From assembly GCA_003151955.1 (NCBI GenBank), contig PLZB01000105.1, positions 9,858 to 73,857 on the forward strand: a stretch of 64,000 bases of DNA, given 5' to 3'. Positions 13,516 to 58,138 of the stretch are shown one piece after another (position 1 is the first letter of the stretch; each line of letters opens with the position of its first letter). The notes below the pieces were generated by a model. It made no database searches, was not told where the DNA came from, and saw only the letters and a list, made by a program, of their open reading frames with translations. Source of the stretch: Acidimicrobiaceae bacterium (GTDB lineage: Bacteria; Actinomycetota; Acidimicrobiia; Acidimicrobiales; UBA8190). The translations under genes and the position numbers were made by a program.

Positions 13516-14604
13516 ATGCTGCTCGGCTTGATCGCCTGTATTGCTTTCGTGCCTCTCTCGGTGCTGCTGCGCATGCGGAGTCGGCATACCGCCACCGGCG
13601 GGACCCCCCGGTGGGACCGAGGGACCCGGCCGGGTCGCCGGGCCGGGGCGGCGCTGTCGCTCGGGACCGCGGCGGCGCTGTCGCTCGTCGTCGGCCTCGT
13701 CGGGGCACCGGCGGCCTCCGCCAGCCAGGCCACGGTGCAACTGGGGACGGCGTCGTCGTTCGCCGTGCTGGCCGGCACGACGGTCACCAACACCGGATCC
13801 TCGGTCGTCTCGGGGAACCTGGGTGTCAGCCCGGGCTCGGCGGTCACCGGCTTCCCGCCGGGACAGGTCGTCAACGGGACCCAGCACGCCGCCGACGCCA
13901 CCGCCCTGCAGGCGGAGTCCGACCTCACCACCGGGTACCTCGACGCCGCCGGGCGGACCCCGGTCACCACGGTGTCGAGCGACCTCGGCGGCCAGACCCT
14001 GGCGCCGGGGGTGTACAAGGCGACCTCGGGGCTCGCCTTGACCGGCACCGTCACGCTCGACGCCCAGAACGACCCCAGTGCCGTGTTCATCTTCCAGGCC
14101 GGATCGACGCTGATCACGGCCTCGAACAGCACCGTGGCGCTGACCGGCGCGGCCCAGGCCTGCAACGTCTTCTGGCAGGTCGGCAGCTCGGCGACGCTGG
14201 GCACCGGCAGCAACTTCAGCGGGAGCGTCCTGGCCTTGACTTCGGCCACGGTGCAGACCGGGACCACCGTGTCCGGGCGGGTCCTGGCCCGCAACGGCCA
14301 GGTCAGCCTGGACGACACGGCCATCACCGTGCCGGCCTGCGCCACGACGTCGGCCACCTCGACCACTCCGACGTCGTCGTCGGGCTCGACCCCCACGACG
14401 TCGACCCCGACCTCCTCGACGGCCACGACCGCAGTCATTCCGGCCGGTGCCCCGTCCACAGGTGCCGGCGGCGCCTTCCGGTCCCGTGACAACGGCCTGC
14501 TGGTGGCCCTCGGTGGGCTCGCCCTCGCCGGCGCCGGGATCGCCACCGCCGTGGCCGTCCGCCGACGTCGGGACCTGGAGGGTCTGGCCGACAGGGAAGC
14601 ATGA
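13516..14604 (+). CDS. DUF3494 ice-binding-type surface protein with sorting signal
   Basis: A 362-residue exported protein. After a leader ending in APAASAS, residues ~70-280 are a DUF3494 ice-binding domain (LGTASSFAVLAGTTVTNTGS, VSGNLGVSPG, ...SAVFIFQAGSTL). Then come a Thr/Ser/Pro linker, APSTGAGG, a hydrophobic helix and RRRR, the layout of a sortase substrate with a variant LPXTG motif. The next gene overlaps its stop and encodes a class F sortase. GGAAAGGGG supports the ATG at 13516, though an ATG at 13573 would give a more usual signal peptide. Not all DUF3494 proteins bind ice; adhesion is an alternative. Confidence 0.85.
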   Translation: MLLGLIACIAFVPLSVLLRMRSRHTATGGTPRWDRGTRPGRRAGAALSLGTAAALSLVVGLVGAPAASASQATVQLGTASSFAVLAGTTVTNTGSSVVSGNLGVSPGSAVTGFPPGQVVNGTQHAADATALQAESDLTTGYLDAAGRTPVTTVSSDLGGQTLAPGVYKATSGLALTGTVTLDAQNDPSAVFIFQAGSTLITASNSTVALTGAAQACNVFWQVGSSATLGTGSNFSGSVLALTSATVQTGTTVSGRVLARNGQVSLDDTAITVPACATTSATSTTPTSSSGSTPTTSTPTSSTATTAVIPAGAPSTGAGGAFRSRDNGLLVALGGLALAGAGIATAVAVRRRRDLEGLADREA

Positions 14605-15314
14605 CCCCGCCGGCCCACGCCGGGCGTGGGCGGCCCCGACCGGGACGGTGGTGGACCCTGACCGCCGTGCTCCTTGTCGTCGGCACCTGCTGCCTGGCCG
14701 CGGGCCTGACCGCCCACCGGGACGGCCTCGCCGTCGCCACCACCTCCCCCACTGGCGACACACCCGCGGCCGGCCCCGGCCAGCCGGCCCCGACGCCGCC
14801 GCCGGTGACCGCTCTGGTGGTGGCCCGGTCGACCCCGGTCTCGCTGAGCATCCCGGCCATCGGCGTGACCGTCCCCCTATCGAGTCTCGGGCTCAACCCC
14901 GACGGGACTGTCCAGGTGCCGACGGACTACCAGGAGCCGGGATGGTTCCGGCTCGGTCCCACTCCCGGTCAGGTGGGCTCGTCGGTCATCCTCGGTCACG
15001 TCGACTCGTACCAGGGCCCCGCCGTGTTCTTCCAGCTCCGATCGCTGCAGCCTGGCGACCAAGTCGACGTCCTCCTGTCCGACGGCGTCGACGTCCAATT
15101 CGCGGTCGACACGGTGGCCACCTACCTGAAGAGCCAGTTCCCAGCCCAGGAGGTCTACGGGTCGCACGGCGTCAGCGCCCTCCAGCTGGTGACCTGCGGT
15201 GGGCAATTCGACGGGGCCACCGGCGGCTACCTGTCCAACGTCGTCGTCTACACCTCCCTCGTCGCCGCCACGCCGGCCGCCGCCACGACCTCGCCCGTCA
15301 GGGTCCCGTCCTGA
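14601..15314 (+). CDS. Class F sortase
   Basis: A 237-residue protein with one N-terminal membrane helix (WWTLTAVLLVVGTCCLAAGL), a Pro-rich linker and an extracytoplasmic sortase domain. His133 in VILGHVDS and Cys199 in LQLVTCGG are the catalytic pair. The segment after TCGG reads YLSNVVVY, without an Arg there, so the third catalytic residue is not clear. It joins substrates cut at an LPXTG-like motif to the cell wall. Its ATG overlaps the stop of the DUF3494 gene (ATGA). That gene carries an APSTG tail, so the two look like a dedicated enzyme-substrate pair. Confidence 0.85.
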   Translation: MTPPAHAGRGRPRPGRWWTLTAVLLVVGTCCLAAGLTAHRDGLAVATTSPTGDTPAAGPGQPAPTPPPVTALVVARSTPVSLSIPAIGVTVPLSSLGLNPDGTVQVPTDYQEPGWFRLGPTPGQVGSSVILGHVDSYQGPAVFFQLRSLQPGDQVDVLLSDGVDVQFAVDTVATYLKSQFPAQEVYGSHGVSALQLVTCGGQFDGATGGYLSNVVVYTSLVAATPAAATTSPVRVPS

Positions 15315-26719: not shown

Positions 26720-27205
26720 TCAACGGGAGGTTCGAACCGGGGTGTCGAGCTTTGCACCCTGCGGGAGGAACAGGCTGGTGGCGCCGTCCTTTTCGGCGTG
26801 GGGAACGTCGACCCATGTGCCGAGCGCTCCGCCGGCTTCGGACTGTCGGTCGGCACCTCGGAGCGGCGCATCGAGGAGCTCGGCGAGTCCGCAGAGGTCG
26901 AACACCCGCCGCACGCGCGGCGATGGAGACCGTAACGTCAATGACCGGGACCGCTGCTCCAGGAAGGTGCGAGTCCGGACGATGACGCCGACGGCTGCAG
27001 CGTCCATGAATTGCACGTCGCTCACGTCGATGACCAGGTCGGCGTCCACCAGGGCGATGGCGCGAGCCAAGGCCGCCGAGAGGTCAGCGGCGGTCGACAC
27101 GTCGAACTCGCCGCGGAGCCACACCACAGGGTGCTTCGCTCTCTCGTCGACAGCCGCCGAACCGGGACGGCGAGCCGCCCGACTCGAATCTTCGAATGGA
27201 GCCAT
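26720..27205 (-). CDS. STAS-domain anti-anti-sigma factor
   Basis: A 161-residue protein. Residues ~25-125 form a STAS domain: VVWLRGEFDVSTAADLSAAL, LVIDVSDVQFMDAAAVGVIV and the C-terminal SPSPRVRRVFDLCGLAELLD. In anti-sigma antagonists a Ser follows the DVSDVQFMD motif and is phosphorylated by RsbW; here the residue is Ala, so control by phosphorylation may be lost. It lies two genes from the RsbW/sigma operon and resembles the STAS protein at 32024. A partner-switch role is likely. Confidence 0.75.
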   Translation of the reverse strand: MAPFEDSSRAARRPGSAAVDERAKHPVVWLRGEFDVSTAADLSAALARAIALVDADLVIDVSDVQFMDAAAVGVIVRTRTFLEQRSRSLTLRSPSPRVRRVFDLCGLAELLDAPLRGADRQSEAGGALGTWVDVPHAEKDGATSLFLPQGAKLDTPVRTSR

Positions 27206-28214: not shown

Positions 28215-29174
28215 CTATTCGAGGCGCATATGGATCCGCACGACCGAACCGGACGCGTTCGATCGGATCTGCACCAGATCGCACAACTGGTTCGCCATCC
28301 ACAGGCCCCGGCCGCCCTGCTGATCCGTCGGGGGCCGACAGCCCCCGGCGGATGGCGCCGCGATCCCTCCACGGTCCCTGATCTCGCAGACCACTTCGGC
28401 GTCGTCGCGCCACATGCGGAGAACCCCGAGTCCGCCGCCGCAGCGCACGCTGTTGGCAGCCGCCTCGCTGGCCGCCATCATCAACGCCTCGGAGCGGTCG
28501 GGTTGAAGCTGCGCACGCCCGACGACAAACTGGCGCAGGTCGGAGAGCGAGCCCCCGTCGAAGGCGATCTCGGCCCAAGAGGTGGCGGGCTCGGGCAGCG
28601 CCCAGCCCAGCACCTCGCCCGGATCTGCCGGCTGTCCATCAAGTGTCGTGGTCCGGCCGGACTCGAAGACGAGCGGGTGGCTCAGCCGCGCCTCGGCCAA
28701 GACAGCGGGCTCGAGGGATCCAACGTCGTAGGGGCAGAGCGCCTGCCACGGGCCCGTCCCGGCGAACACCGAGTTGACGAGCCGCTCCTGGAGCTGGCAC
28801 TCGGCGAGCACCTCGTTGTTCAGGCCGGACCATATCGGCTCGCCGATCCCCCGGAAAGGGAGGTTCACCCCCGAGGACTGCTCCACGAACTTCCTCCACG
28901 CGGGGATGATCCGGGCCGGGTTCTTGGCGACCTCCTCCATGTCGAAGAAAGCGACGCCTGCCGCCTGACCTCGAAGAGCCTTGCGGAGGGCGTCGATCTG
29001 ATGGCGGCGCAACGCCACCATGATCGGCTCGCTGCCTTTCAACCCTTCCCGGATGAACCCTAGGGCCCCAGCTATGAGCTCTTCCTCTCCTTCGTAGAAC
29101 AGCGCCATGTGGGAGAACACTCCCGCGGTCGCGGAGCCTACGAACGGCCCCTCCCACCCACCCTGGTCACTCAT
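28215..29174 (-). CDS. MEDS domain and HATPase anti-sigma regulator
   Basis: A 319-residue protein. Residues ~20-190 are a MEDS domain (FSHMALFYEGEEELIAGALG, ...FFDMEEVAKNPARIIPAWRK), a presumed sensor. Residues ~215-315 are an RsbW-like ATPase (EALMMAASEAAANSVRCGGG with the N-box, IRDRGGIAAP, DQQGGRGLWMANQLCDLVQI). Such fusions phosphorylate STAS partners or bind sigma factors. Its ATG overlaps the end of the sigma gene, so it is the third gene of the RsbW-like/sigma/MEDS operon. Confidence 0.8.
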   Translation of the reverse strand: MSDQGGWEGPFVGSATAGVFSHMALFYEGEEELIAGALGFIREGLKGSEPIMVALRRHQIDALRKALRGQAAGVAFFDMEEVAKNPARIIPAWRKFVEQSSGVNLPFRGIGEPIWSGLNNEVLAECQLQERLVNSVFAGTGPWQALCPYDVGSLEPAVLAEARLSHPLVFESGRTTTLDGQPADPGEVLGWALPEPATSWAEIAFDGGSLSDLRQFVVGRAQLQPDRSEALMMAASEAAANSVRCGGGLGVLRMWRDDAEVVCEIRDRGGIAAPSAGGCRPPTDQQGGRGLWMANQLCDLVQIRSNASGSVVRIHMRLE

Positions 29175-29916
29175 CGGCCCGAAGGTCCTGCCGCAGGGTG
29201 GCCAATGCCACGTGAAGCAGGCGCGACACGTGCATCTGGCTCACTCCGATCCGCTCGGCTATCTCTTTCTGAGTAAGCCCGTCCACGAACCGGAGATGGA
29301 TGATGACCTGCTCACGGCGGGGCAGGCGGCGAAGCTAGGGCGACAGGTCGGAGCGAAATTCGGCACGGAGCAACTGGTCGTCGACGTCGAAACCCAATCG
29401 GTCGGCCAGCGGATCCTCGTCGCCCGACGGGGCATCAATCGAGATCGAGCGGTACGCCTTGCCGGCCTCGAGCGCTTCGAGCACGTCGGTCGGTCGGCAT
29501 CCGCAGGCCCCGGCCAGCTCGTCGACCATCGGGGACCGACCGAGTCGTTGCGACAGGTCGGCTTCGGCGTCTCTGACTTCGAGATAGAGCTCCTGGAGGC
29601 GCCGTGGCGCGCGGACCGACCAACCCTTGTCACGGAAGTACCGTTTCAGTTCGCCGATGATCGTCTTGGTGGCGAACGTGGAGAACTGGACGCCGCGTTC
29701 GGGGTCGAAACGGTCCACGGCGTTCACCAGGGCGAGGGAGGCCACCTGCACCAGGTCGTCGAGCGGTTCGCCGCCGCTCGCGAACCGCCGTGCGAGATGC
29801 CAGGCCAACCCCATGTGTGACTCGACGAGGCGGTTCCTTGCATCGGGATCCGCGCCGGTGGCAAGGGCGGCGAATTCCTCGCGGCTCTGCAGCCGGCGCT
29901 GCAGATCCTTTGTCAC
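29167..29916 (-). pseudogene. SigB/SigF-type sigma factor gene interrupted by an in-frame TAG
   Basis: The reading frame would encode 249 residues: region 2 (LVESHMGLAWHLARRFASGG, EPLDDLVQVASLALVNAVDR, FSTFATKTIIGELKRYFRD), region 3 (RRLQELYLEVRDAEADLSQR) and region 4 (REQVIIHLRFVDGLTQKEIA, ERIGVSQMHVSRLLHVALA). Codon 194 (29337-29335) is TAG. The frame then stays open for 55 more codons of perfect region 4 to TGA at 29167. As written, the product lacks the -35-binding domain. Recent mutation, sequencing error or readthrough are all possible. GTG start overlaps the RsbW-like stop. The 3' end overlaps the MEDS gene. Confidence 0.8.
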
Positions 29917-30329
29917 CGACGGTCGACCTGCGCCCGCTTCTTCCGAAGCCAGGCCAACGACGAGCCCTCCCCGATCGAGGTCCTGTGCTCATCGACCAAC
30001 GCATCCAGTATTCGCGTGGACCACGGTTCCGAAAGCCCGTCGTTCCGCCCGTCCTCCAATGGCCGCCCAGGGCCGGTCAGGGTGCACACGACCTCGATCG
30101 ATTCGTCGTCAGAGGTGAACACGATGCTCAACCGTCCGTCGGCGCCGCCATGCGGGTCGAGCAACGACATGCACAGCTCCATAACAGCAAGCTGGAGGTC
30201 TTCGATCTCCTCGACCGTCATGATCCGGGACGCGGCAGCACCGACATGGAGGCGGACCAGGAACAGCAGATCGGCCTCGGCCGGCAGCGAGAGCTCGATG
30301 GGCCCGGTCACCAGGCCGCCTTCCAACAC
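29913..30329 (-). CDS. RsbW-like anti-sigma ATPase
   Basis: A 138-residue protein. VEEIEDLQLAVMELCMSLLD gives the N-box helix of HATPase_c anti-sigma factors, although the usual Asn is replaced by Cys-Met-Ser. IEVVCTLTGPGRP and ILDALVDEHRTS follow. RsbW proteins hold the sigma factor and phosphorylate its STAS antagonist. I choose GTG 30329, since GGAG stands seven bases upstream and the length then fits the family. Its stop overlaps the sigma GTG, so it is coupled to the sigma gene. Loss of the Asn could mean that ATP binding is weak. Confidence 0.7.
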   Translation of the reverse strand: MLEGGLVTGPIELSLPAEADLLFLVRLHVGAAASRIMTVEEIEDLQLAVMELCMSLLDPHGGADGRLSIVFTSDDESIEVVCTLTGPGRPLEDGRNDGLSEPWSTRILDALVDEHRTSIGEGSSLAWLRKKRAQVDRR

Positions 30330-30330
30330 G

Positions 30331-30477
30331 TCATCGCTCCATGGTCGCGCGGGGCGGACGCCGAATGGGCCCGAACCCGGTCCCAGTGCGCGACCGACGG
30401 TATTTGAAGCGAACTGTGCCCCTCCGATGTCCACTGGTTGGCAGCGGAATCGAGATTTCGGGGGTCTCTGTCGCCAT
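30331..30477 (-). CDS. Small basic protein at the head of the sigma operon
   Basis: A 48-residue protein: MATETPEISIPLPTSG, then an Arg-rich half (RFKYRRSRTGTGF, RRPPRATMER). GGAAGG precedes the ATG at 30477. The stop is directly before the GTG of the RsbW-like gene, so it may serve as a coupled leader cistron. No family recognised. Confidence 0.4.
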   Translation of the reverse strand: MATETPEISIPLPTSGHRRGTVRFKYRRSRTGTGFGPIRRPPRATMER

Positions 30478-30529: not shown

Positions 30530-30555
30530 TTCCCCACCGCCCGCGTGTGGCAAAC
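30530..30555 (-). promoter_or_regulatory. SigB/SigF-type promoter of the sigma operon, GTTTGC-N14-GGGGAA
   Basis: On the minus strand GTTTGC (30555-30550), 14 bases and GGGGAA (30535-30530), about 55 bases before the small gene at 30477. This would let the sigma factor drive its own operon, as is usual for sigB loci. Confidence 0.5.
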
Positions 30556-30566
30556 CATCCTCTGGC

Positions 30567-30592
30567 GTTTCAGAACCTGTCCGGTCGGGGAT
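30567..30592 (+). promoter_or_regulatory. SigB/SigF-type promoter GTTTCA-N14-GGGGAT
   Basis: GTTTCA (30567-30572), 14 bases, GGGGAT (30587-30592). It is divergent from the promoter at 30530-30555 with only 11 bases between their -35 boxes, and ends 9 bases before the GTG at 30602. Confidence 0.5.
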
Positions 30593-31748: not shown

Positions 31749-32027
31749 GTGACCCACCTGATCGCCACCGCCCGAGACCTTCATCGGTGGGCCGAGGACG
31801 GCGCGCACGGAAACGGAGCCCGATGGATGTCGGAGCTCGCCGCCGGGCACAGCGTCCAGGTCGCTCTGGTCATGCTCCAGAACTCGCTCGAAGCGAGCGC
31901 TGAGGTCGTCGAGATGCACCACACGGTGGAGCGTTCAAACTTCTCGCGCCGAAGCCGGCCGGGGAGCAGTGCTCCAGGCCCCAGAAGCGCGTCGATTTCG
32001 GCGACTGATGCCAGGAGCACGCTATGA
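31749..32027 (+). CDS. Hypothetical protein coupled to a STAS gene
   Basis: A 92-residue protein; LIATARDLHRWAEDG, SELAAGHSVQVALVMLQNSL and EASAEVVEMHHTVERS suggest helices, with a basic Ser-rich tail. The stop overlaps the ATG of the STAS gene (ATGA), so the two are translated together and may act together in the partner switch. Family not recognised. Confidence 0.4.
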   Translation: MTHLIATARDLHRWAEDGAHGNGARWMSELAAGHSVQVALVMLQNSLEASAEVVEMHHTVERSNFSRRSRPGSSAPGPRSASISATDARSTL

Positions 32028-32398
32028 CTCAACTTGGGTTGTCGTTGTCTCAGGACGCCCTGCAGGGGTTCGCCGCCATTGCAGGCCGCGACAGCCTCGG
32101 CCGCACGGTGGTGTGGCTCCGCGGTGAGCATGACGCCTCCACCGCCCTAGCGCTGTCGAAGACCGTGGCCCGCGCCATCCAGCGAAACTCCTCCGATCTC
32201 GTGTTGGATCTCAGCGGTGTGCAGTTCATGGATTCGGCCACGGCCGGGGTGATCGGCGATTCGTTGGCGGCCCTGCACAGACGGTCCCGGTCCCTGACGC
32301 TCCGGGCCCCGTCCCCGGGCGCACAGCGGTTCCTGAACCTCGGCAGCCTGGGCGAGCTCGTCGAGGATCGTCCTCGGGTCTGTGTCCTGGCGCCCTGA
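32024..32398 (+). CDS. STAS-domain anti-anti-sigma factor
   Basis: A 124-residue protein that is nearly all STAS domain: TVVWLRGEHDASTALALSKT, LVLDLSGVQFMDSATAGVIG, LTLRAPSPGAQRFLNLGSLG. Unlike the STAS protein at 26720, it keeps Ser after the FMD motif, the position phosphorylated by RsbW-type kinases. It should release the SigB/SigF-type factor from the RsbW-like protein when dephosphorylated. The sigma operon lies 2 kb to the left. Confidence 0.8.
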   Translation: MTQLGLSLSQDALQGFAAIAGRDSLGRTVVWLRGEHDASTALALSKTVARAIQRNSSDLVLDLSGVQFMDSATAGVIGDSLAALHRRSRSLTLRAPSPGAQRFLNLGSLGELVEDRPRVCVLAP

Positions 32399-32443: not shown

Positions 32444-32469
32444 GTTTCAGAAACGTCCGACCGGGGTAG
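32444..32469 (+). promoter_or_regulatory. SigB/SigF-type promoter GTTTCA-N14-GGGTAG
   Basis: GTTTCA (32444-32449), 14 bases, GGGTAG (32464-32469), 35 bases before the ATG at 32505. This is the best match in the window to the SigB/SigF consensus. It may drive the hemerythrin-like gene and the csbD-like pair behind it. Confidence 0.6.
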
Positions 32470-32504
32470 AGCTACGGCGCCGGGCCCAAACCGAGGAGAC
32501 CACC

Positions 32505-33239
32505 ATGACGGGATCCAGCGCAACGCAGGACGAACTGGTGACCCTTCAGCTCGTTGACCACCGGAAGGCCGAGCAACTCCTCGAACGCCTTGCCGGCCTC
32601 CCACCCCGGGGACGTGCCGAGGCATTCAGCGAGCTCACCCGCGAGCTCCTCCGTCACCAGCTGGCCCAGACGGTCGTCGTCAATCCCGCCCTCCGGAAGT
32701 TTGTCGATCTGGGCGACGCTGTCGCTGATCGCCGCAGCTCGGCCCAGTCCGACGTAGAGGAGTACCTCGCCGAGCTCGAAAACCTCGAGATCACCGGCGA
32801 CAACTTCGGCCAGCGCTTCACCCGGCTCCGGGAGGTCGTCCTGGCCCGCGCCAACGTCGAGGAGACCGACGTCCTCCATCTCGTGACGTCGAGGATCCCG
32901 CCCGACGAGCTTCGGCAGCTCGGGAGGCGATACGAGATGGCCCGAGCCTCCGCCCACGCCCATCCTCATCACCGTCCCGTGCCACCCCCACGGCAACCAT
33001 CGGAACGCCCGGATCCCGGACCCGGTCGCCCACCGGGCAGACCGCATCGGACGACGCTGTCGCCTCGGCTGATTGGCCGCGGAGACGGTCGGGGAACAAT
33101 TCGACGTACCACCACTCCAGCGGAGGCGGTGGCGCGATCTGTCGGGGTTCGCATCGCTTGTCCCGGTCCGGCGGGGGACATTTCGTACCCGACGGCATCC
33201 CGCCGTCGGGGTCGTCCCGACATTTCCAGAGAGGTGTGA
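32505..33239 (+). CDS. Hemerythrin-like protein, iron ligands mostly lost
   Basis: A 244-residue protein. Residues ~10-150 have the four-helix plan of HHE cation-binding proteins: LQLVDHRKAEQLLERLAG, FSELTRELLRHQLAQTVVV, ...LREVVLARANVEETDVLHLV. Only two or three of the usual His/Glu ligands remain, so iron or oxygen binding is doubtful. The last ~90 residues are Pro/Arg-rich and low complexity and could follow a frameshift. A SigB-type promoter is upstream and the csbD-like gene starts two bases after the stop. Confidence 0.6.
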   Translation: MTGSSATQDELVTLQLVDHRKAEQLLERLAGLPPRGRAEAFSELTRELLRHQLAQTVVVNPALRKFVDLGDAVADRRSSAQSDVEEYLAELENLEITGDNFGQRFTRLREVVLARANVEETDVLHLVTSRIPPDELRQLGRRYEMARASAHAHPHHRPVPPPRQPSERPDPGPGRPPGRPHRTTLSPRLIGRGDGRGTIRRTTTPAEAVARSVGVRIACPGPAGDISYPTASRRRGRPDISREV

Positions 33240-33240
33240 G

Positions 33241-33435
33241 ATGGAACTCATCAATCGAGCGAAGAACAAGGCCGAGAAGGCCAAGGGCAAGGGGAAGAGG
33301 GGTGCGGCGAACCTCACCGGCAACGACTCCTTAGCGGCCGAAGGCAAACGAGACGAAGGAAAGGCCAGACTCAAGGACGCCGGCGAGGACCTGAAGGACG
33401 CCGCCGACAAGGTCAAGAACGCGGTGCAACGGTGA
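33241..33435 (+). CDS. CsbD-like stress protein
   Basis: A 64-residue charged helical protein: MELINRAKNKAEKAKGKGKR, NLTGNDSLAAEGKRDEGKAR, then LKDAADKVKNAVQR. The pattern equals CsbD, a SigB-dependent stress protein in Bacillus. GAGAGGTG precedes the ATG. Its stop overlaps the GTG of the next gene. Second CsbD-like protein of the window. Confidence 0.8.
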   Translation: MELINRAKNKAEKAKGKGKRGAANLTGNDSLAAEGKRDEGKARLKDAGEDLKDAADKVKNAVQR

Positions 33436-33755
33436 AGGGGGTCTGGAAGGGCCTCGTCGTCGGAGGCCTCACCGGAGCCGGCGTCGGCATGCTCCTGGAC
33501 CTCCTCGCTCTCGGATCTCGGCAAGCCACCGCTCTCGGCGACAAGGCCGTCGAGATGGCTCCGGTCGCGGCCGACCATCTGAAGGCCGCGGTGGCAGCGG
33601 GTTCAGCCCGCGTCGAAGCTGCCGAGATCCCCGACCATCTCGTCGAGGCGGCCCATCACCTCCGCGATTCCGAGCTGACAGGACAGGCGAAGGACGTCGT
33701 GCTCCGGGCCGTCAAGAAGGGCCGGACACTGGTGGAGGACAGCCGTTCGTCGTAG
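33432..33755 (+). CDS. YtxH-like small protein
   Basis: A 107-residue protein with one glycine-rich N-terminal hydrophobic helix (GLVVGGLTGAGVGMLLDLLA), then amphipathic helices with repeated Ala, Lys, Asp and Val. This is the layout of YtxH-type stress proteins. GTG overlaps the csbD stop, so it is co-translated with it. Function unknown. Confidence 0.6.
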   Translation: MKGVWKGLVVGGLTGAGVGMLLDLLALGSRQATALGDKAVEMAPVAADHLKAAVAAGSARVEAAEIPDHLVEAAHHLRDSELTGQAKDVVLRAVKKGRTLVEDSRSS

Positions 33756-35269: not shown

Positions 35270-37951
35270 TCACCAGCTCAGAGCCCAGTCGGCGCGCTGG
35301 CCGCTCCGGGTGGGGAGGACGAAGGTGAGGGTGTCCCCGCGTCGGACCGGGGTCACCATGGAACCCGACACCCAGACCGTGGTCCGGGCCGGGTCGACCC
35401 CGGGCGGCACGGTGACGGTCACGGGCAACGTCCCGGTGGACTGGACCACGAGGTAGCCCTGGAGCCGGTGGGCGGTGCGGGCCACCCCGACGTCGGGGAG
35501 CTCGACGGAGAAGCTCGAGGCAGGCCAGTGGGGGTCGATCCGGTAGGCGGTGGCCGAGGGTCGGATGCCGGTCAGGGCGACGACGTCGAACAGGGTCCAG
35601 GCCGGCTGGTGCATGACCTGACCCTGGTAGCTCGAGTTCAGCCCGCTCCCGCAGTTCCCGGGCTTCGAGGAGTAGAAGGACCAGCAGACGTCGTCGACCG
35701 AGATCGTCCCGTCCCAGGCCGTGGGGTATGCGGCGGCATGGTCGGCCAGGGTGTTGCGGAGGAACTCGTCGAAGGCGTCGGCGGCGGCCCCCGGCACCGT
35801 CCCGTCGAGCTCGGTCAGGGCCCAGACCAGGGTCCCGTTGAGGGCATACCAGGTCCCCCCGACGTAGACGGCGTTGTTGTCGCCGATCCCGACCGGAGGT
35901 GTGGTCCGCTCAGCCACCCCGGGGTCGTCGGCCGCCGGGGACTGGGAGGAGCCGATCCGGGCCGGACCCCCGACGACGGCGGGGGCCCCGACGCCGGTCA
36001 GGTACCGGCGGATGTTGGCCACGGTGGTGACAGCCTGGGCCGGGGAGGGCACCCCGGACATGAGCGCCCAGGGTTGGGGCTCCTCGAATATGGCCCACGT
36101 CCCCACTCGGTCGGACCCGGCCCAGCCCCGGCCGTACCAGCCTGAAGTCGTCCAGTCCGAGGCCAGCACCCCGTCGGCCCTGGCCGTCGCCTTCCGGAGC
36201 TCGGCCGCGAAGGTGGCGTCGTGGCGGGCGTCGGCCAGCTGGGCCGTCAGGGGGTAGACGGTGGCGACCTGGGCCGTGACCGAGGACTCGGTGAGCCCGA
36301 GGAACCGGGTGGAGAGGTCCGACCAGTCCCCGGCGTAGCCGGCCTGGTAGTCCCCGTGGGGGCCGATGAGGGTCTCCTGGTGCTGGAAGGCGAGCTGGAG
36401 GTGGGCCCAGAGGGTGGCCGAGCCGCCGCCGCGGTAGGGGACCTGCTGGTCGAAGAAGGACCAGTCCCGGGTGGCCAGGCCGTACTCGTCGGCGGCCAGG
36501 AGGAGCCAGACGTCCATGTCGTCGGAGATCCCGACCGAGAGGGGCTGGCAGAGGGGGCCGGTGGCGTAGGGGGTGGCCCCGGCCGAGGTCTGCTCCTGGG
36601 CCGAGTAGCGGATGATGTCCCGGGCCAGGCCGGGGTCGCTGTAGACCATGGGCAGGGCGAACTGGAGGGGGTCCCGGTAGGCCTCCTGGAGACCGGCCTG
36701 GTACTGGTAGTAGCCCCCCTGGGAGATGACGTGGGCCCCGGCGCAGTCCTCGTAGGTCGACCCCGACCGCAGCGTGTAGGCGTCCCAGGCCACCTCCCGA
36801 CCCAGCCAGGGATCGGTGGTCCCCACCTGGACCCGGGGCAGCCAGGCCGACCAGGCCCGCTCGCTGGCCTCGAAGCTCCCGGGCATGGACACCGAGGCCA
36901 GGGTCCCCTGGACCGTCGAGGGGTCGGCTGCCCCGTAGGCGTAGCGGAGGGTGACGCTCTGGCCCGGGCCCAGGGTGACGGGGGCCCGGAAGGCGAAGAG
37001 GGTCGAACCCACCGTCCCGTCGGCCACGGCCGGGGCCGTCGATCCCGACAGCGAGTCGGCCGTCACCTCCGCCGGCCGGTCCTGGCCCCCGGCCCCGAAG
37101 AAGGCCGGGGCCGAGGTCTCGGTGCCCGACACCGGGCCCTCGAGAGCGGCGGCGTAGATGCTCAGGGGCCGGGCGTCGGCCGACATCGGGTCCTGGGCCA
37201 CCGAGAGGACCTTGTGGGTGGGGTCCCAGACCGGGGCGGCCATCCCCCGGGGCGTCCCCGTCGTCTGGTCGTAGGGGTTGACGTCCCAGTACTCGTACCA
37301 GGACATGGTCCGGCTGGTGGTCGAGCTGTTGGTCAGGGTGACGTCGTCGAGGAGGACCGGGGCGTCCCCGAAGGGGGCGTAGGTCCGCTGCCGGAGCCCG
37401 TCCACGGTGAGGTCCTTCTGGACGTAGCCCACCCCGAACGTGAGGCCCACCCCGGCCCCGGCCCGGTCGGCGAAGACCTGGCCACCGACGTTCAGGTAGC
37501 CGTAGCCCCCGGCGTAGTGGCCGTCGGCGGGGTCGGTGTGGTTGACCCACTGGTAGAGCCGGTCCTGGCTCCAGAGCTCCGTCGACCCGTCGGCCGAGGC
37601 TGCCGCCACGATGTGGTCGTTCCCGACCTGGTGGACGATCTCCGAGCCCCCACCCACCTGGGTCGGGGTGTGGGCCGCCTTCGACGGGTCGGCGGTGAGC
37701 CGGAAGGCGGGGAGACCCTGGCCGTCGGTCTCCCAGCTGCCGTAGTCACCGCTCCCGTAGCCGGAGGACCCGATCCCCGGGGCGGACGCCAGCGCCGGCA
37801 GGGGGGCGGGGCCACGACTCCCCACCCCGCAGCTCGTCACCACCAGAACCAGAGCCGCCACCACCGCCGTCGTGAGCACGGTCCATCGACCGAGCCGCTG
37901 CAATCCAATTGGAGCGCGGCTGGGTGGGGCTGGAGAGTCATTCCGCACCAT
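35270..37951 (-). CDS. Secreted GH36/GH94-like glycoside hydrolase or phosphorylase lipoprotein
   Basis: An 893-residue exported protein. The leader ends in LVLVVTSC, a good lipobox with Cys41. The N-terminal part to ~residue 390 is beta-rich, like the supersandwich domain of GH94-type enzymes (WYEYWDVNPYDQTTGTPRG). The middle is an (alpha/alpha)6 barrel (SGSTYEDCAGAHVISQGGYY, QEAYRDPLQFALPMVYSDP, GISDDMDVWLLLAADEYGL) and a C-terminal sandwich follows. Related enzymes cleave or phosphorolyse beta-glucosides. In this class the general acid is an Asp such as DDMD, but I cannot assign the chemistry. GGAAGG precedes the ATG. Likely acts on polysaccharide outside the cell. Confidence 0.75.
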   Translation of the reverse strand: MVRNDSPAPPSRAPIGLQRLGRWTVLTTAVVAALVLVVTSCGVGSRGPAPLPALASAPGIGSSGYGSGDYGSWETDGQGLPAFRLTADPSKAAHTPTQVGGGSEIVHQVGNDHIVAAASADGSTELWSQDRLYQWVNHTDPADGHYAGGYGYLNVGGQVFADRAGAGVGLTFGVGYVQKDLTVDGLRQRTYAPFGDAPVLLDDVTLTNSSTTSRTMSWYEYWDVNPYDQTTGTPRGMAAPVWDPTHKVLSVAQDPMSADARPLSIYAAALEGPVSGTETSAPAFFGAGGQDRPAEVTADSLSGSTAPAVADGTVGSTLFAFRAPVTLGPGQSVTLRYAYGAADPSTVQGTLASVSMPGSFEASERAWSAWLPRVQVGTTDPWLGREVAWDAYTLRSGSTYEDCAGAHVISQGGYYQYQAGLQEAYRDPLQFALPMVYSDPGLARDIIRYSAQEQTSAGATPYATGPLCQPLSVGISDDMDVWLLLAADEYGLATRDWSFFDQQVPYRGGGSATLWAHLQLAFQHQETLIGPHGDYQAGYAGDWSDLSTRFLGLTESSVTAQVATVYPLTAQLADARHDATFAAELRKATARADGVLASDWTTSGWYGRGWAGSDRVGTWAIFEEPQPWALMSGVPSPAQAVTTVANIRRYLTGVGAPAVVGGPARIGSSQSPAADDPGVAERTTPPVGIGDNNAVYVGGTWYALNGTLVWALTELDGTVPGAAADAFDEFLRNTLADHAAAYPTAWDGTISVDDVCWSFYSSKPGNCGSGLNSSYQGQVMHQPAWTLFDVVALTGIRPSATAYRIDPHWPASSFSVELPDVGVARTAHRLQGYLVVQSTGTLPVTVTVPPGVDPARTTVWVSGSMVTPVRRGDTLTFVLPTRSGQRADWALSW

Positions 37952-47448: not shown

Positions 47449-48285
47449 ATGACGACGGAGACGGCAGGAGCGGCGGGGGTGCTGGCGGGGAGGACGGCCG
47501 TGGTGACGGGGGCCTCCTCGGGGATCGGCCGGGCCATCGCCGAGACCCTGGGCTCGGCCGGGGCCCATGTCGTCCTCGGGGGCCGAACCCTGGAGCCCAT
47601 GGAGGCCTCGGTGGCGGCCGTGACCGGGGCCGGGGGGACGGCCGAGGCCGTCGTCGTCGACGTCAGGAAGGTGGACGACGTCCGGTCCCTGGTGGACCGG
47701 GCCGTGGCCTCGACGGGGCGGCTCGACCTGATGGTGAACAACGCAGGGGTCAGCTTCCCGGAGCCCATCCTCGAGGCCGACCCCGAGCACTGGCGGGCCA
47801 TGTTCGAGACCAACGTCATCGCCCTCCTGGCCGGCTGCCAGGCCGCCGTGGCCGCCATGCGGGCGGCCGGGAACGGGGGCCACGTCGTCAACATCTCCTC
47901 GGTGGCCGCCCTCCGGCCCGACTCCGGCGTCTACGGCTCGACGAAGCACGCCGTGAACACCATCACGAACACCCTCCGCCAGGAGTTGATGGAGGACCCC
48001 ATCCAGGTGGTGACGGTCATGCCGGGGGCGGTGGCCACGAGCTTCGCCCGGAACTTCGACCCGGCCGTCCTGGCCGGCCTGGCCCAGGTGGGGGGCTCGA
48101 CGGTCGAGATGGTGAAGGGGGAGCGGCTCTCCGACGAGGTCCTCCGGGGGGCCCGCCAGGCCCTCCCCGACCATCTCTGCGGCCCCGAGGACATCGCCGA
48201 GGCCGTCCTCTGGGCCGTGACCCGGCCGGCCGGGGTCCACATCGCCGAGGTCGTCGTCCGGCCCAACCGGGACCTGAACCTCTAG
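47449..48285 (+). CDS. Short-chain dehydrogenase/reductase
   Basis: A 278-residue enzyme. VVTGASSGIGRAIAETL is the NAD(P)-binding TGxxxGxG motif, LMVNNAGVS the NNAG motif, ISSVAALRPDSGVYGSTKHA supplies the Ser-Tyr-Lys catalytic residues, and VTVMPGAVATSF the PG motif. It interconverts an alcohol and a ketone. GGGAGG precedes the ATG. serB starts three bases after its stop, but the functions are not obviously related. Confidence 0.85.
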   Translation: MTTETAGAAGVLAGRTAVVTGASSGIGRAIAETLGSAGAHVVLGGRTLEPMEASVAAVTGAGGTAEAVVVDVRKVDDVRSLVDRAVASTGRLDLMVNNAGVSFPEPILEADPEHWRAMFETNVIALLAGCQAAVAAMRAAGNGGHVVNISSVAALRPDSGVYGSTKHAVNTITNTLRQELMEDPIQVVTVMPGAVATSFARNFDPAVLAGLAQVGGSTVEMVKGERLSDEVLRGARQALPDHLCGPEDIAEAVLWAVTRPAGVHIAEVVVRPNRDLNL

Positions 48286-57322: not shown

Positions 57323-58138
57323 ATGTTGCCCCCTATGGGACTCCTCGAGGGACGCCGGGCCGTCGTCACCGGGGCCGGCTCCGGGATCGGCCGGTCAACG
57401 GCCCTCCGGATGGCCGCCGAGGGAGCCGCCGTGGCCGTCCTCGACATCGACGCCGCCACCGCCGCGGCCGTGGCGGCCGAGATCACCGCCCTCGGGTGCC
57501 CTCCGGCCCTGGCCGTCGAGGCCGACGTGGCCGACTCGGCCTCCCTCGGGGCCGGCTTCGACCGTGCCGCCGAGGCCCTCGGCGGGCTCGACACCGTCTG
57601 CAACAACGCCGGGATCGGGGCCGTCCTCCCCCTGGACCGCTACTCCGACGACCTCTGGGCCAAGCTCATCGGGGTCAACCTCGGGGGTGTCTTCAACGGC
57701 ATCCGGGCCGCCCTCCCCCACCTCCGGGCCGCCGGGGGCGGGGTCATCGTCAACATGTCCTCCGTGGACGGGATCAGGCCGGCCCGGGGGGAGGGCCCCT
57801 ACTCGGCGGCCAAGGCCGGGGTCATCGCCCTGACCCGGTCGGCCGCCCTCGAGTACGGCCCCACCATCCGGGTCAACTGCATCTCCCCCGGCTTCATCGA
57901 CACCCCTCTGACGGCCCTTGGCCTCTCCGCCGTCCCCGGGGCCCGGGCCGCCATCGACGCCGCCACTCCCCTGGGCCGGGCCGGCACCGCCCGGGAGGTG
58001 GCCGACGTGGTCGTCTTCCTCTGCTCCGACCTCTCCTCCTACGTGACCGGCGTCAACCTCGCCGTCGACGGGGGATCGCTCCTCCCCAACCCTCAGGTCG
58101 ACCCCCTCCTCCACGGCATCCTCGGGATGCTCGGCTAG
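57323..58138 (+). CDS. Short-chain dehydrogenase/reductase
   Basis: A 271-residue enzyme. VVTGAGSGIGRSTALRM is the cofactor motif, VLDIDAAT with Asp at the end of strand 2 suggests NAD preference, CNNAGIGAV the NNAG motif, MSSVDGIRPARGEGPYSAAK the Ser-Tyr-Lys site, and CISPGFIDTPLT the PG motif. It is divergent from the etf fusion, seven bases between start codons. ATG 57323 or 57335; the second fits the family better. Confidence 0.85.
   Translation: MLPPMGLLEGRRAVVTGAGSGIGRSTALRMAAEGAAVAVLDIDAATAAAVAAEITALGCPPALAVEADVADSASLGAGFDRAAEALGGLDTVCNNAGIGAVLPLDRYSDDLWAKLIGVNLGGVFNGIRAALPHLRAAGGGVIVNMSSVDGIRPARGEGPYSAAKAGVIALTRSAALEYGPTIRVNCISPGFIDTPLTALGLSAVPGARAAIDAATPLGRAGTAREVADVVVFLCSDLSSYVTGVNLAVDGGSLLPNPQVDPLLHGILGMLG

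Follow-up and report, generated by a model that had tools for sequence, protein, structure and literature searches.

A SigB/SigF-type sigma factor gene is interrupted by a single in-frame TAG in the 64,000-nucleotide stretch of DNA that we analysed (the window), and an intact region 4 follows the stop. The host is a high-GC environmental bacterium. No suppressor is present in its assembly, nor is a second SigF paralogue. The stop is probably a nonsense mutation of recent date in the sole general-stress sigma gene of SigB/SigF type in this genome, which would now yield a 193-residue product without region 4. We infer both that the TAG base is real and what it does to the cell.

Table 1. Positions, in the window, of the interrupted sigma factor gene, its parts and its neighbours.
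Feature	Position	Strand	Remark
SigB/SigF-type sigma factor gene with one internal TAG	29167..29916	-	250 codons including the final TGA
In-frame TAG, codon 194	29335..29337	-	Leu in 93 of 104 homologues
Codons 1-193, predicted truncated product: region 2 (residues 30-99) and region 3 (residues 112-170)	29338..29916	-	
55 codons past the TAG: complete, undecayed region 4	29170..29334	-	
RsbW-like anti-sigma factor gene, directly upstream of sigma	29913..30434	-	4-base overlap with the sigma start
RsbA-family anti-sigma regulator gene (MEDS and HATPase), intact	28215..29174	-	ATG overlaps the sigma end by 8 bases
Weak SigF-like promoter motif GTTT-N16-GGGGA, upstream of rsbW	30531..30555	-	not above chance

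The codon appears as CTA on the forward strand, and the sigma gene starts with a GTG at 29916. Read through the TAG, the gene encodes 249 amino acids that match TIGR02980 (SigBFG) over residues 25-245 with 245.7 bits (cut-off 234.35), while the stop-terminated 193-residue protein reaches 170.2 bits, below this cut-off. Regions 2, 3 and 4 are all encoded in the DNA, the last of them past the stop (Pfam Sigma70_r4, residues 195-243), and the TAG falls on the border between regions 3 and 4. The Sigma70_r4 match covers positions 2-50 of the 50 in the profile, which shows that region 4 is complete and begins directly after the TAG. An intact full-length domain in frame past a stop is not a chance event. 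The sequence-only reading had described a TAG at sigma codon 194, then 55 codons of perfect region 4 up to a TGA overlapping the next gene, and no further visible defect. Each of these points was confirmed: the TAG occupies 29337-29335 of the minus strand, the final TGA (29169-29167) overlaps the start of the rsbA-like gene (ATG at 29174), and the TIGR02980 and Pfam matches are otherwise intact.

Sigma homologues were drawn from two sets: 40 further genomes within the same family and order, and named genomes, most of which were Nitriliruptoria, Nocardioides and Kribbella. The 40 genomes, related at family and order level, included none of the same genus, and the nearest homologues were about 61-62% identical. 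Viral contigs contained no relatives. Across 104 aligned homologues the codon 194 column holds Leu (93), Ala (5), His (4) or Met (2) and never a stop; the premature stop is thus missing from the intact homologues, which fits a pseudogene made by nonsense mutation. TTG, the sole Leu codon one substitution away from TAG, is used at this position by 10 of the 104. Because the family residue is Leu and TTG lies one substitution from TAG, the change at codon 194 was presumably from Leu to stop. The GAG or CAG (Glu or Gln) that had been expected at this codon found no support.

Region 4 shows no decay, which means that the stop, if real, is young. Among sites conserved to 90% or more, the window sigma differs from its homologues at 6 of 65 sites in regions 2-3 and 1 of 25 sites in region 4, within the range of intact close relatives; none of the 24 region 4 sites conserved to 95% or more has changed. 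When unconstrained change of these 24 codons was simulated, the probability of no departure was about 0.05 at 0.06 substitutions per site. A real stop is thus probably younger than about 0.06 neutral substitutions per site. The in-frame TAG and the complete, undecayed region 4 support the two earlier options, that the mutation is very recent or that the base is an error.

The lower end of the simulated age range is zero, which is also what would be expected of a base error, or of a base from a minority strain, in the draft assembly; the sigma factor would then be intact in most cells. The sigma gene and its neighbours are otherwise faultless, and the assembly is at draft stage (110 contigs, 94.67% completeness). 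We nevertheless consider an error of this kind less likely than a real mutation, though it is the main rival. Elsewhere in the genome, 151 matches to two large domain families, PF00106 and PF00005, contained no internal stop; errors are therefore not general in the assembly, and the TAG stands out in it. This rarity does not separate a single wrong or minority base from a real mutation. The same rarity of premature stops provides no independent sign of gene decay and to that extent counts against a recent mutation. Consensus base errors are seldom met in ordinary draft genomes, and fresh nonsense alleles are common. This, together with known losses of stress sigma factors by the same route, favours a real mutation.

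The conservation of region 4 past the stop would also agree with read-through of the TAG at a useful level, by a leaky stop, a suppressor or a special tRNA, giving full-length sigma factor in reduced or regulated amounts. The genome yielded 66 tRNA matches, including those of a 25-tRNA array, but none carried a CUA anticodon when typed with ARAGORN, and a pattern search for a CUA anticodon arm plus T-loop returned three matches, none of them a tRNA. The search for a suppressor tRNA(CUA) that the sequence-only reading had proposed was thus run and found none, and a suppressor tRNA was rejected as the explanation. Suppressor tRNAs are carried by some E. coli K-12 strains, whereas none was found here. 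Since the assembly lacks about 5% of the genome, an unseen suppressor tRNA is possible but unlikely. The tRNA-Gln genes found in the assembly (two TTG, one CTG) all lie within the array and none elsewhere, which leaves some room for such a gene; their absence outside the array is perhaps due to assembly gaps.

Other routes to read-through fared no better. PylS was not found above the cut-off in the genome; two weak matches lay below it, and most control genomes yield such matches too. Pyrrolysine decoding of the TAG was therefore rejected. RF1 is present, and TAG serves as an ordinary stop (the window has 44 long frames, of which 11 end in TAG, 31 in TGA and 2 in TAA), so that a genome-wide loss of UAG termination was rejected as well. 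The RNA past the TAG folds no better than shuffled sequences (z of -0.16 and -0.13), and a UAG kept at the same position, as in recoded genes, was found in no relative. Nothing pointed to a novel mode of decoding. These results do not support the suggestion that the TAG is read through or recoded, and we regard useful read-through as very unlikely. Stress might also allow a little read-through of the UAG, with full-length sigma made only when termination is weak, and codon 194 would then act as a translational switch for the general stress response; we regard this as extremely unlikely.

Further same-frame stops were flagged in the window at 37272, 48283, 58136, 61502 and 62114. The one at 48283 proved to be an ordinary gene border, between a dehydrogenase and an ACT/HAD protein, and so did the one at 58136, between a dehydrogenase and NucS; neither marks an interrupted gene. 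The tRNA array is a dense cluster of 25 genes for most amino acids on another contig (L071:7250-10298; G000:C16:40250-43297), and short stretches of it resemble parts of large plasmids, actinobacterial and other (Euzebya pacifica and others). In the window itself, ARAGORN called a 98-base tRNA-Val (cac) at 14577-14674 (+) that has no counterpart in the Rfam tRNA matches; it is probably spurious, or else a degraded tRNA.

The position of the stop, exactly between regions 3 and 4, raised the question of a functional short product. The 193 residues could be maintained as a decoy for RsbW or core polymerase, or region 4 could be made separately, as in SigO/RsoA of Bacillus subtilis, a two-protein sigma factor. 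Were regions 2-3 a long-standing product, however, region 4 should have decayed, and no decay is seen. For a split sigma factor, the first in-frame start lies 16 codons past the TAG, inside region 4, and a protein begun there would lose the first helix of that region. Neither architecture is seen in any relative, and we hold both to be highly improbable.

The RsbW-like gene matches TIGR01924 weakly (32 bits, below the cut-off), and a relative of it lies upstream of sigma in 22 of 24 related loci; on this basis an RsbW-type anti-sigma factor is co-encoded. The RsbA-family gene has a full-length match to NF041045 (292 bits). Its placement directly downstream of sigma is shared by none of the 24 related loci; in genome G002 (locus L004) rsbA is upstream of rsbW. 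Two STAS-domain (RsbV-like) genes, one hemerythrin-like gene and one CsbD-like gene surround the sigma operon at 26720-27205 (-), 32024-32398 (+) and 32502-33755 (+), which suggests a general-stress neighbourhood.

The strict promoter motif GTTT-N13-18-GGGTA occurred twice in the window against 0.24 expected, and a looser SigF-like motif four times against 2.2 expected. None was found close to the rsbW start in relatives. Two alike motifs, at 30567-30591 (+) and 32444-32468 (+), have the form GTTTCAGAA...GGGG(T)A and are possible SigF-type promoters; the second lies upstream of the hemerythrin-like and CsbD-like genes and would fit a stress regulon. The earlier mention of intact SigB-type promoters around the gene was therefore weakly supported, by the strict motif and not by the looser one or by the region before rsbW.

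No second SigF-type sigma factor was found in the genome. Its other full-length matches to sigma factors belong to the RpoD and WhiG/FliA types, and a redundant SigF paralogue was accordingly rejected. Among 16 other genomes of the family, a SigF-type match (E below 1e-40) is missing from 6, including two that are more than 90% complete (G007 and G008). Given this patchy presence, and a genome without a second copy, the SigF-type sigma factor looks dispensable.

If the nonsense mutation is real, RF1-driven termination at codon 194 would release a 193-residue protein that keeps region 2 (core binding and -10 recognition) and region 3 and loses region 4 (contacts with the beta-flap and the -35 element). 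From general sigma-factor biology, SigF-type promoters would not be used in the normal way because the -35 and beta-flap contacts are gone with region 4, and the SigF regulon would not be transcribed normally. The truncated protein would at most occupy RsbW or core polymerase. Coupled translation of rsbA may also drop, because ribosomes would come off the message about 160 bases short of the rsbA start.

Stop alleles are common among stress sigma genes. In E. coli rpoS, some K-12 strains carry a TAG at codon 33, and a natural stop removes the 86 C-terminal residues (PMC2700278); Listeria isolates with a truncated SigB have also been described (PMC8764371). The rpoS alleles resemble the window gene in that a single stop lies in an otherwise intact stress sigma gene, and the natural allele is likewise cut at the C-terminus, although RpoS belongs to another sigma subfamily and another phylum. 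The Listeria monocytogenes gene is also that of a SigB-type general-stress sigma factor, truncated in natural isolates, but several strains were compared there and only one genome here. With the SigB/SigF/SigG family (TIGR02980) and actinobacterial SigF the window sigma shares regions 2, 3 and 4 and the rsbW neighbour; it differs in the TAG and in the rsbA-like gene directly downstream.

Gene callers would annotate this locus as a 193-amino-acid sigma factor without region 4, which calls for caution with such entries. If the stop is real, a fresh nonsense mutation would be costing one more bacterium its general-stress sigma factor, which fits the patchy occurrence of SigF in the family.
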